Shown: one piece after another, positions 62,022 through 63,829 of the stretch
Layout: each line of letters starts with the position of its first letter
Position numbering within the stretch: the first letter of the stretch is position 1
Source of the DNA: Metabacillus endolithicus
Lineage (GTDB): Bacteria > Bacillota > Bacilli > Bacillales > Bacillaceae
Length of the DNA stretch: 64,000 nt
Reading direction: 5' to 3'
NCBI RefSeq assembly: GCF_023078335.1
Contig: NZ_CP095550.1
Coordinates: 1,403,501-1,467,500 of the forward strand
Notes under the pieces: model-generated
What the model was told of the DNA's origin: nothing
The model's input: only the letters and a program-made list of their open reading frames with translations
The model's database searches: none
Made by a program: the position numbers and the translations under genes

Positions 62022-62167
62022 ATGATAAATATAAAGATTGTATTACACATGAACTTTGTTTATTATCTTGTACGGACCGTCCCGATTTCAGAAAGATTAT
62101 TCAAGATGTTGCTCAATCGGTACGCTGATGTAACTCAATGAAGCCTATTCACGTGCTCCACCCCGCG
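62022..62167 (-). repeat. fMet 5' fragment plus structured spacer element
   Basis: The first 14 nt of tRNA-fMet (CGCGGGGTGGAGCA) are repeated at 62167-62154, followed by a spacer homologous to those in front of tRNA-Thr and tRNA-Lys (CTTGAATAATCTTTCTGAAAT block), then the intact tRNA. Stem CCGATT/AATCGG (62082-62087, 62115-62120) replaces CAAATT/AATTTG of the Lys copy. Confidence 0.8.
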
Positions 62168-62189
62168 ACAATAAAATATAAAATAAATA

Positions 62190-62282
62190 TGGAGGAGGAA
62201 AGGGGATTCGAACCCCTGCGGGCTTTGACACCCCTGTCGGTTTTCAAGACCGATCCCTTCAGCCGGACTTGGGTATTCCTCC
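62190..62282 (-). tRNA. tRNA-Ser(TGA)
   Basis: 93 nt with long variable arm, anticodon TGA in GTCTTGAAAAC. Discriminator position reads T, not the usual G (see findings). CCA encoded. Confidence 0.93.
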
Positions 62283-62292
62283 TCAATTCAAA

Positions 62293-62369
62293 TGGTGGAC
62301 CTTGTAGGACTCGAACCTACGACCGGACGGTTATGAGCCGTCTGCTCTAACCAGCTGAGCTAAAGGTCC
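62293..62369 (-). tRNA. tRNA-Ile2(CAT), lysidine type
   Basis: 77 nt, anticodon CAT in GGCTCATAACC, acceptor GGACCTT. Matches the B. subtilis Ile-CAU tRNA whose C34 is converted to lysidine by TilS, and holds the Ile place in the trnB order. Confidence 0.88.
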
Positions 62370-62399
62370 AATCAAATGCTTTGCAACTAAAACTTAATA

Positions 62400-62476
62400 T
62401 GGTAGCGGCGGAGGGAATCGAACCCACGACCTCACGGGTATGAACCGTACGCTCTAGCCAGCTGAGCTACACCGCC
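62400..62476 (-). tRNA. tRNA-Met(CAT), elongator
   Basis: 77 nt, GGCGGTG acceptor with G1-U72 wobble, anticodon CAT in GGTTCATACC, CCA encoded. T stem carries one T-T mismatch (50-64). Confidence 0.93.
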
Positions 62477-62606
62477 ATAGTTATCAACGCTCTTTGTAAA
62501 AAACCATGCTCGTCATGTCTCTTTGTCAAGACACATTCCTCGCAAGCCTACAATGATGAAATGCAGGATGTTTACGGCTCGCTCTAGCCAACTGAGCTAC
62601 ACCGCC
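62477..62606 (-). repeat. tRNA-Met 5' half plus spacer
   Basis: First 27 nt of tRNA-Met (one mismatch, GTTGG for GCTGG) at 62606-62580, then a spacer unlike the other three, then the intact tRNA. Breakpoint again just after the D arm. Confidence 0.75.
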
Positions 62607-62628
62607 ATGTTTTTAAAAAATATATTAT

Positions 62629-62704
62629 TGGTGGAGCCTAGCGGGATCGAACCGCTGACCTCCTGCGTGCAAAGCAGGCGCTCTCCCAGCTGAGCTAAGG
62701 CCCC
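62629..62704 (-). tRNA. tRNA-Ala(TGC)
   Basis: 76 nt, anticodon TGC in GCTTTGCACGC, CCA encoded. Confidence 0.95.
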
Positions 62705-62727
62705 ATTTTAAAGTTTAGATCAATTAA

Positions 62728-62804
62728 TGGTCGGGAAGACAGGATTCGAACCTGCGACCCCTTGGTCCCAAACCAAGTGCTCTACCAAGCTGAGCTACTT
62801 CCCG
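62728..62804 (-). tRNA. tRNA-Pro(TGG)
   Basis: 77 nt, anticodon TGG in GGTTTGGGACC, CCA encoded. Confidence 0.95.
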
Positions 62805-62908
62805 TTCTAGAATTCAGAGGTGGGATTTGGGAGGTCAGAGACTTTATTATTGCTTTAGAGCGAAAAGTTTATTCTCGCTTCTGACTTCTAATTTCTCACT
62901 TCTATACT

Positions 62909-62985
62909 TGGCGCGCCCGAGAGGAGTCGAACCCCTAACCTTTTGATCCGTAGTCAAACGCTCTATCCAATTGAGCTACGGGCGC
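62909..62985 (-). tRNA. tRNA-Arg(ACG)
   Basis: 77 nt, anticodon ACG in GACTACGGATC (A34 to inosine expected), CCA encoded. The 104-bp spacer before tRNA-Pro holds simple GAAGTGAGAAATTAGAAGTC-type sequence. Confidence 0.95.
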
Positions 62986-63024
62986 AAATAATCAATAATA
63001 ATCTATAAAGATTAAGGTAAGTTA

Positions 63025-63042
63025 TTTTCGCTAGCGCGAAAA
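63025..63042. repeat. Spacer hairpin after tRNA-Leu(TAA)
   Basis: TTTTCGC/GCGAAAA, 4-nt loop, one of three nearly identical copies directly 3' of a tRNA CCA. Confidence 0.8.
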
Positions 63043-63047
63043 AACTA

Positions 63048-63136
63048 TGGTGCCGAGGACCGGAATCGAACCGGTACGGTAGTCACCTACCGCAGGATTT
63101 TAAGTCCTGTGCGTCTGCCAGTTCCGCCACCCCGGC
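63048..63136 (-). tRNA. tRNA-Leu(TAA)
   Basis: 89 nt with long variable arm, anticodon TAA in GACTTAAAATC, CCA encoded. Confidence 0.95.
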
Positions 63137-63144
63137 ACTGTCTT

Positions 63145-63219
63145 TGGAGCGGAAGACGGGATTCGAACCCGCGACCCCCACCTTGGCAAGGTGGTGTTCT
63201 ACCACTGAACTACTTCCGC
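63145..63219 (-). tRNA. tRNA-Gly(GCC)
   Basis: 75 nt, anticodon GCC in CCTTGCCAAGG, CCA encoded. Confidence 0.95.
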
Positions 63220-63233
63220 AATATTGTTAGTTA

Positions 63234-63251
63234 TTTTCGCTAACGCGAAAA
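63234..63251. repeat. Spacer hairpin after tRNA-Leu(TAG)
   Basis: TTTTCGC/GCGAAAA with loop TAAC; second copy. Confidence 0.8.
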
Positions 63252-63256
63252 AACTT

Positions 63257-63342
63257 TGGTGCGGGTGAAGGGACTTGAACCCCCACGTCACAAGGACACT
63301 AGATCCTAAGTCTAGCGCGTCTGCCAATTCCGCCACACCCGC
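63257..63342 (-). tRNA. tRNA-Leu(TAG)
   Basis: 86 nt with long variable arm, anticodon TAG in GACTTAGGATC, CCA encoded. Confidence 0.95.
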
Positions 63343-63354
63343 AAGGTGTGTAAA

Positions 63355-63430
63355 TGGTGAGCCATGAAGGACTCGAACCTTCGACCCTCTGATTAAAAGT
63401 CAGATGCTCTACCAACTGAGCTAATGGCTC
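63355..63430 (-). tRNA. tRNA-Lys(TTT)
   Basis: 76 nt, anticodon TTT in GACTTTTAATC, CCA encoded. A substrate of the mnm5s2U pathway whose gene ytqA is frameshifted in this window. Confidence 0.95.
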
Positions 63431-63583
63431 ATTTAAGAAATGAGTAATATTATTAAATTTATCTCTTGTTATAGACACCCAAATTTCAGTAAGCTTATTC
63501 AAGCTGCAGCTCAATTTGTGTGCTGATGTAAAGCTTCGATGCATATTCGTTCGTGCTCTACCAACTGAGCTAATGGCTCATTT
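63431..63583 (-). repeat. tRNA-Lys 5' half plus structured spacer element
   Basis: First 26 nt of tRNA-Lys plus 4 upstream bases (AAAT) duplicated at 63583-63554, followed by a spacer with stem CAAATT/AATTTG (63480-63485, 63513-63518) and an inner AGCTT/AAGCT hairpin, then the intact tRNA-Lys. Confidence 0.85.
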
Positions 63584-63606
63584 TAGTTATTTATAATTAA
63601 AATGAG

Positions 63607-63682
63607 TGGTGCCGGCGAGAGGACTTGAACCCCCAACCTACTGATTACAAGTCAGTTGCTCTACCAGTTGAGCTACACCGGC
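63607..63682 (-). tRNA. tRNA-Thr(TGT)
   Basis: 76 nt, anticodon TGT in GACTTGTAATC, CCA encoded. Confidence 0.95.
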
Positions 63683-63829
63683 ATTATTTATAGATGTATA
63701 TAAGACTTTTTCTTACTTACCAGTCACCCAAATCTCAGAAAGATTATTCAAGTAGCAGCTCGATTTGTGTGCTGAAGCAGGAGCTTCGAAGCATATTCGA
63801 TCGTGCTCTACCAGTTGAGCTACACCGGC
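63683..63829 (-). repeat. tRNA-Thr 5' half plus structured spacer element
   Basis: First 26 nt of tRNA-Thr duplicated at 63829-63804; the spacer is homologous to that before tRNA-Lys, with stem CAAATC/GATTTG (63729-63734, 63762-63767), then the intact tRNA-Thr. Confidence 0.85.

Follow-up and report, generated by a model that had tools for sequence, protein, structure and literature searches.

A short structured sequence without genes, bordered by copied tRNA 5' ends, at tRNA genes of the Bacillales

A conserved sequence of typically 78-79 nt, which we call E, stands behind a copy of the 5' part of a tRNA and ahead of the intact gene for the same tRNA type in bacteria of the order Bacillales. 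We put at roughly even odds (a probability of about 0.5) the reading that E is a gene-less, site-specific element of tRNA genes in this order that acts through its folded RNA. E can be filed under no known family, because it has neither the integrase nor the length nor the crossover sites of integrative islands and adds to their layout a fold with compensatory changes as well as a kept dinucleotide; a description of such a design was not found in the literature searched, the coverage of which was partial.

Results

The stretch of DNA analysed here, referred to as the window, comprises 64,000 nt of Metabacillus endolithicus and ends in an array of 21 tRNA genes on the minus strand. An earlier note on this DNA had reported that each of four genes (Thr, Lys, fMet and elongator Met) has a duplicate of its own 5' end ahead of it, of 26, 26, 14 and 27 nt respectively, and this is borne out on the minus strand (Table 1). 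The copied pieces all terminate in GAGCA or GAGCG, with the break at the border between the D-arm and the anticodon arm in Thr, Lys and Met, as had been described, and between nucleotides 14 and 15 (14|15) in fMet. Likewise, the spacers of Thr, Lys and fMet were rightly recognised as homologous: they start with a common core, E, of 76-79 nt in the window, whose main stems read CAAATC/GATTTG, CAAATT/AATTTG and CCGATT/AATCGG, the Met spacer belonging to another family. Promoters within the spacers are unsupported, with five promoter-like sites in 61900-64000 against 2.9 expected; in 58000-64000 tRNA alone exceeded its Rfam gathering threshold and no other family appeared in the spacers.

Table 1. 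Parts of the four duplicated units (positions in the window)
Feature	Position	Strand	Remark
Copy of tRNA-Thr nucleotides 1-26, ends GAGCA	63804..63829	-	26/26 identical to 63657-63682
Element E, Thr copy, 79 nt	63725..63803	-	Covariance model 111.7 bits
AC, tRNA-Thr nucleotides 27-28	63723..63724	-	
A+T-rich tail, E to tRNA-Thr	63683..63722	-	
Intact tRNA-Thr(TGT)	63607..63682	-	
Copy of tRNA-Lys nucleotides 1-26, ends GAGCA	63554..63579	-	26/26 identical
Element E, Lys copy, 78 nt	63476..63553	-	Covariance model 100.5 bits
TC, tRNA-Lys nucleotides 27-28	63474..63475	-	
Tail ahead of tRNA-Lys	63431..63473	-	
Intact tRNA-Lys(TTT)	63355..63430	-	
Copy of elongator tRNA-Met nucleotides 1-27, ends GAGCG	62580..62606	-	
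Second spacer family E2 and its tail	62477..62579	-	Layout repeated in relatives
Intact tRNA-Met	62400..62476	-	
Copy of tRNA-fMet nucleotides 1-14, ends GAGCA	62154..62167	-	14/14 identical
Element E, fMet copy, 76 nt	62078..62153	-	Covariance model 92.8 bits
GT, tRNA-fMet nucleotides 15-16	62076..62077	-	
Tail ahead of tRNA-fMet	62022..62075	-	
Intact tRNA-fMet	61945..62021	-	

That the duplicated design is not due to chance follows from a BLASTN search of the same genome with the Thr unit, which gave 17 matches, 11 with the core and six with the tRNA 5' end only. A search for further copies by covariance model, suggested in the earlier note, matched many genera: a first model, built from 12 copies of E, found 14 core copies in this genome and matched 35 of 60 genomes (this one included) in 15 of 30 genera, while a second model, run on the order Bacillales, matched at least 131 of 397 genomes and at least 59 of 136 genera, both being lower bounds owing to strict filters and at most 10 scored candidates per genome. 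A sample of the phylum yielded matches in three of 398 genomes, namely this genome and two others of the same order. Among the matches listed, the carriers belong to Bacillus, Neobacillus, Metabacillus, Peribacillus, Cytobacillus, Anoxybacillus, Heyndrickxia and Sutcliffiella. No match to the Thr and fMet queries was obtained in 50,697 phage records, nor to the one pattern run on IMG/VR; plasmid records held no core match, the Thr query recovering the tRNA 5' end only and the Lys query nothing.

The anatomy of the units was derived from 383 model matches in three sets: 145 at loci found by BLASTN or by the model, 136 at loci chosen by a pattern that itself demanded the D-arm and the left end, and 102 mixed. 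These matches represent 326 distinct contexts, of which 313 were evaluated; the 13 left out are 10 at the ends of sequence stretches, two tandem units whose tRNA lies more than 700 bases off, and one copy (L127:5273-5362) that is inverted relative to the neighbouring tRNA-Lys. The tRNA that follows E is Lys in 103 copies, Thr in 77, Phe in 74, fMet in 36, Arg in 10, Asn in seven, Met in three and another in three, and the nearest next tRNA is of a type that bears E in 310 of the 313; in the remaining three, the tRNA is gone (L168, an fMet unit with no 3' half after E) or the sequence holds N (L185 and L183). The edit distance between the copied piece and the 5' end of the next tRNA is 0 in 233 copies, 1 in 44, 2 in 19 and 3-4 in five, which places 301 of 313 within four edits. 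Spacers without tRNA fragments, which the earlier note had named as evidence against itself, are few: 12 of the 313 pieces differ by more than four edits. Changes fall more often within the initial six bases of the piece than close to the break (197 copies, including those chosen by the pattern).

Sequence identity to the tRNA does not end at the left border of E: the two bases directly after its stem equal the two bases that follow the break in the tRNA in 287 of 313 copies, and the third does so in 154. In the set free of pattern selection (n = 140), the piece lies within two edits in 132 copies, the two bases agree in 131 and the third in 75, figures to be read in the knowledge that the model itself spans GAGCA and a few bases after the stem. 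At Phe genes the kept bases track their own tRNA, with AA next to AA in 38 of 42 copies, AT next to AT in 29 of 30 and GA next to GA in both of two. These matches on the two flanks therefore place E between tRNA nucleotides 26 and 27 (14 and 15 in fMet), followed by a tail and then by the intact tRNA. The suggestion of an insertion with duplication of the tRNA 5' end accordingly stands as regards a repeated small element and a duplicated 5' end, and requires amendment in that the insertion point lies inside the tRNA and two further tRNA bases are kept. E measures 78 or 79 nt in 254 of 301 measured copies, the unit as a whole about 150 bp, and the tails mostly 18-100 nt, dimensions that leave no room for a gene, an integrase gene included. 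The ends of E (CGATCGAATA... and ...GATTTGGGTG) are, by eye, not inverted copies of each other.

How sharply E is bounded can be seen by comparing copies with one another. For 369 pairs from different tRNA types that are at least 84% identical within E (overlapping pairs, 191 of them Lys/Thr), identity is 86-100% up to the last base of E and then falls to 11% and 55% over the following two bases; for pairs within a type that are 84-92% identical within E, the next two bases agree in 92% and 95%, after which identity drops to 31-72%. The retention of two bases beside a diverging tail is the strongest hint that the flanks are read, be it by a mobility process or by a host function, and plain insertion is no explanation for their lasting identity. 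A guide inside E that could pair with the two bases was sought, and no column fits. For Lys and fMet, and weakly so for Thr and Phe, the leader of the copied piece resembles that of the tRNA more than within-type shuffles do, in a test that retained tandem units, which inflates the resemblance. We do not claim that the leader is duplicated along with the rest; by eye, the tail at the Arg site is unlike the native leader.

The sites occupied by E obey the consensus TRGAGCA^D (R, A or G; D, any base other than C), with the break at 26|27 or, in fMet, 14|15. The loci in which 1716 distinct tRNA genes were scored had mostly been chosen for E, so that the counts are not population rates and it is the internal contrast that stands. 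GAGCA occurs near the D-arm in 617 of these genes, and 267 have E as their nearest upstream element, all with GAGCA except the fMet unit at L168, where the tRNA is gone. Occupancy depends on the base that follows GAGCA: it is 0/119 with C against 266/498 otherwise (A, 137/220; T, 91/167; G, 38/111). Val genes (GGGAGAGCA) are occupied in 0 of 61 cases and Pro genes (GAGCAC) in 0 of 62; elongator Met or Ile2 genes (CAT) with GAGCA, in one of 33. The choice of tRNA follows a sequence motif, not the amino acid or the anticodon, and the position of the break, which had been described by GAGCA and by tRNA structure, retains the first part of that description; no fixed structural position governs it, the rule being GAGCA with any base but C after it. 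The window contains 22 further TRGAGCAD sites outside tRNAs, and the covariance model finds E at none of them; the motif alone is therefore insufficient and the tRNA context matters.

The earlier note had proposed a selected RNA fold on the strength of three stems, and the larger collection upholds it. Over 137 distinct copies, pairing holds in 98.8% of the cells of the nine-pair main helix and eight of its nine pairs show compensatory changes on both sides, the copies being related and these counts hence not independent; the loop is conserved in the same copies. The whole structure is 92.2% paired, and of five measures four were reached by none of 500 shuffles and the fifth, the count of pair types, by two, while slid versions of the structure drop to 30.5-43.6% pairing. 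The main helix of 296 distinct copies comprises 2533 Watson-Crick cells, 56 G-T or T-G, 14 A-C or C-A and 60 others. Wobble is tolerated mainly on the sense strand, a bias that speaks for RNA, or for this one DNA strand, as opposed to a double-strand site. Folding energies of single copies of E are not unusual (z of -0.54, +0.63 and +0.70) and, among whole units, only that of Thr is low (z -2.02, against -0.42 for Lys and -0.70 for fMet); the case for the fold therefore rests on covariation. The first helix of E is weak (77.5% paired) and is not claimed. In copies of 67 model-matched bases (L103:7750-7816 and 7874-7940, in tandem, and L151:4053-4119), most of the large loop is gone and the stem is kept. 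Copies of 67 bases also occur, judging by match length only, at L205, L018 and L179.

Both empty and occupied sites, a comparison that had likewise been proposed, are found in relatives. Among 21 genomes of the genus, five (G000, G002, G015, G010 and G016) carry E at the Arg-TCT gene and 16 have this site empty, and in a paralogous array of the window's own genome (L012) the Thr and Lys sites are empty. A promoter-like stretch, identified by eye, precedes the copied piece at the Arg gene, so that E would be transcribed there in the pre-tRNA leader. The tails of the five Arg copies look homologous, which makes a single origin followed by loss, or spread among genes of this type, just as likely as two gains; an independent gain by two Arg groups, which the tree had first suggested, lost support in view of these tails and of a test that does not reject one origin (p 0.27). 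Units also occur in tandem, up to six at one site (L165) and, in that same strain, three apiece at several sites (L191, L210). In trees that rest on some 80 columns and are weakly resolved, tRNA types cluster with repeated switches between them (27 on 227 tips, 23 on 89). At L040, around 1414-1494, the Arg fragment ahead of E is itself interrupted in its D-loop by a further insert of about 80 nt.

Discussion

The main competitor to our reading holds that E is a host structure acting in cis in the leader of the pre-tRNA, whereby the copied piece and the two bases would compete with the real 5' half for the 3' half and the loop would bind a protein or an RNA, thus regulating maturation. We regard this as possible, if rather doubtful. 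In its favour, the fold prefers the sense strand, the loop is conserved in 137 distinct copies, all copies examined lie upstream in sense orientation with the single exception of the inverted one, a promoter-like stretch stands before the copied piece at the Arg gene, and the two bases persist beside a diverging tail. Against it stand the patchy occurrence of E (no match in 266 of 397 Bacillales genomes under strict filters, 16 of 21 Arg sites empty), the tandem arrays of six, the persistence of loop-less copies in tandem, and a choice of tRNA that tracks the motif instead of the amino acid or anticodon. Nor do the fMet units fit: nucleotides 15-16, the bases retained there, do not form a helix with the 3' half of a tRNA.

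An unlikely reading is that the unit is a minimal integrative island, that is, an integrase substrate whose att site would be the tRNA 5' half and which a tyrosine integrase of a phage or island would move in trans. In PMC4383910, which deals with the Islander set, 159 islands leave a 5' tRNA fragment against 3760 with a 3' fragment, and the search demands an integrase gene and rejects candidates below 2 kb. E shares with these islands, as described there, the succession of displaced tRNA fragment, element and restored intact tRNA in the same orientation, and tandem arrays as well; it differs from them in its 78-79 nt (about 150 bp for the unit), in being gene-less, in a break at 26|27 or 14|15 instead of the anticodon loop, the T loop or the T/acceptor junction, in its compensatory fold and in the kept dinucleotide. 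A double-strand site, moreover, needs no compensatory fold, one core is used with differing tRNA sequences, and limited queries found no match in phage records or IMG/VR and no core match in plasmid records.

Very unlikely, in our estimation, is that a Y1 transposase moves E as single-strand DNA in the manner of IS200/IS605 or REP/RAYT elements, with GAGCA as the cleavage word and the hairpins as recognition marks. The genome of the window has one Y1 match, and a fixed 5' target word together with a hairpin recognised as a fold is what such an element would display; yet seven of 35 carriers, including G010 and G023 (five copies apiece), gave no match to Y1 (past activity being possible), it is present in 16 of 25 genomes negative for E, and no copy lies away from tRNA genes among those examined. 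REP elements associate with RAYT transposases. E resembles them, as PMC3733652 describes them, in placing hairpins beside a short fixed word, most targets having GTAG before GAGCA, and is unlike them in that fMet (GTGG) and Arg (ATAG) targets lack GTAG. PMC3733652 also names MITEs and other dispersed repeats, among them bcr1 from the Bacillus cereus group. E is similar to these in being short, gene-less, repeated and present in Bacillus relatives; it is set apart from them by its location at tRNA genes in the copies examined, the lack, by eye, of terminal inverted repeats and the partial copy of the target gene.

An inert relic, in which a tRNA gene was duplicated in tandem and its first copy decayed, with neither element nor function, is scarcely credible: in its favour, the match to the tRNA after E reaches 7-14 nt in a few copies and eroded copies exist, but it is already contradicted by one homologous core at eight isoacceptors, for which the recombination between tandem copies proposed in the earlier note leaves no account, and by the compensatory changes, the exact common ends and the 0/119 at GAGCAC. 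Introns of tRNAs are structured inserts at a fixed point inside the tRNA sequence with both flanks kept. E shares all of these properties and is unlike an intron in that nearly every copy evaluated has an intact tRNA of its own type behind it and that L168 has neither a tRNA nor a 3' half; no intron covariance family, group I and group II included, matched the window region at gathering or up to an E-value of 5.

Under the preferred reading of a gene-less, site-specific element, E would first settle inside a copy of a tRNA, and an arrangement would survive only where a complete tRNA lies downstream of it. The unit, consisting of E, the two bases, the tail and the tRNA 5' half, may then spread, multiply and be lost among genes of one tRNA type, gain and loss probably proceeding by recombination between the 26-bp direct repeats, and in the rare moves to another tRNA type E alone would be carried. 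Whatever moves or uses E would recognise its folded RNA strand. We advance more tentatively, as a conceivable yet somewhat improbable extension, that E is the first known RNA-borne mobile element homing to tRNA genes, its folded RNA and flanks being copied into TRGAGCA^D by host or borrowed machinery and the element persisting as a complete tRNA stays downstream. It counts against mobility that no move of E has been observed. Nor was an enzyme found, and the three searched for are not universal in carriers: besides Y1, the reverse transcriptase expected of a retroelement has no match in 11 of the 35 genomes with E, including one with 10 copies (G021), and the IS110 transposase expected of an IS110 bridge-RNA element has none in five.

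E is matched by roughly one in three of the genomes sampled from this well-studied order and, in the window region, by no Rfam family. Were E mobile, it would represent a parasite of tRNA genes without a protein of its own, endowed with an exact target rule and a signature at the RNA level; were it to serve the host, it would constitute a large, hitherto unrecognised class of leader RNA in the pre-tRNAs for Lys, Thr, Phe, fMet, Arg and Asn. In both cases the tRNA arrays of Bacillus relatives offer a testable system, and the annotation of tRNA pieces in them needs a new model.

The arrays of the window's genome have further features. A palindromic spacer, TTTTCGCTARCGCGAAAA, occurs three times in the array of the window (63025-63042, 63234-63251 and 63843-63860), and a long conserved spacer ahead of tRNA-Phe (window 61602-61781) has similar counterparts in other arrays of the same genome (L003, L005 and L009). 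Several fMet genes of this genome have altered anticodon loops (L011:1644-1723, L004:865-942, L003:1061-1138 and L303:443-518; ARAGORN assigns no clear anticodon), and these could be sequence errors or decaying genes.

The spacer at elongator tRNA-Met, finally, differs from E and defines a second family, E2, with the same layout and a break at GAGCG. Apart from the window (62477-62606), it is found at L002, L004, L045, L074, L269-L276 and L304, the last with three tandem E2 units ahead of one Met gene. E2 is possibly related to E, and the word TTGAATAATCTT is common to E and some E2 copies.
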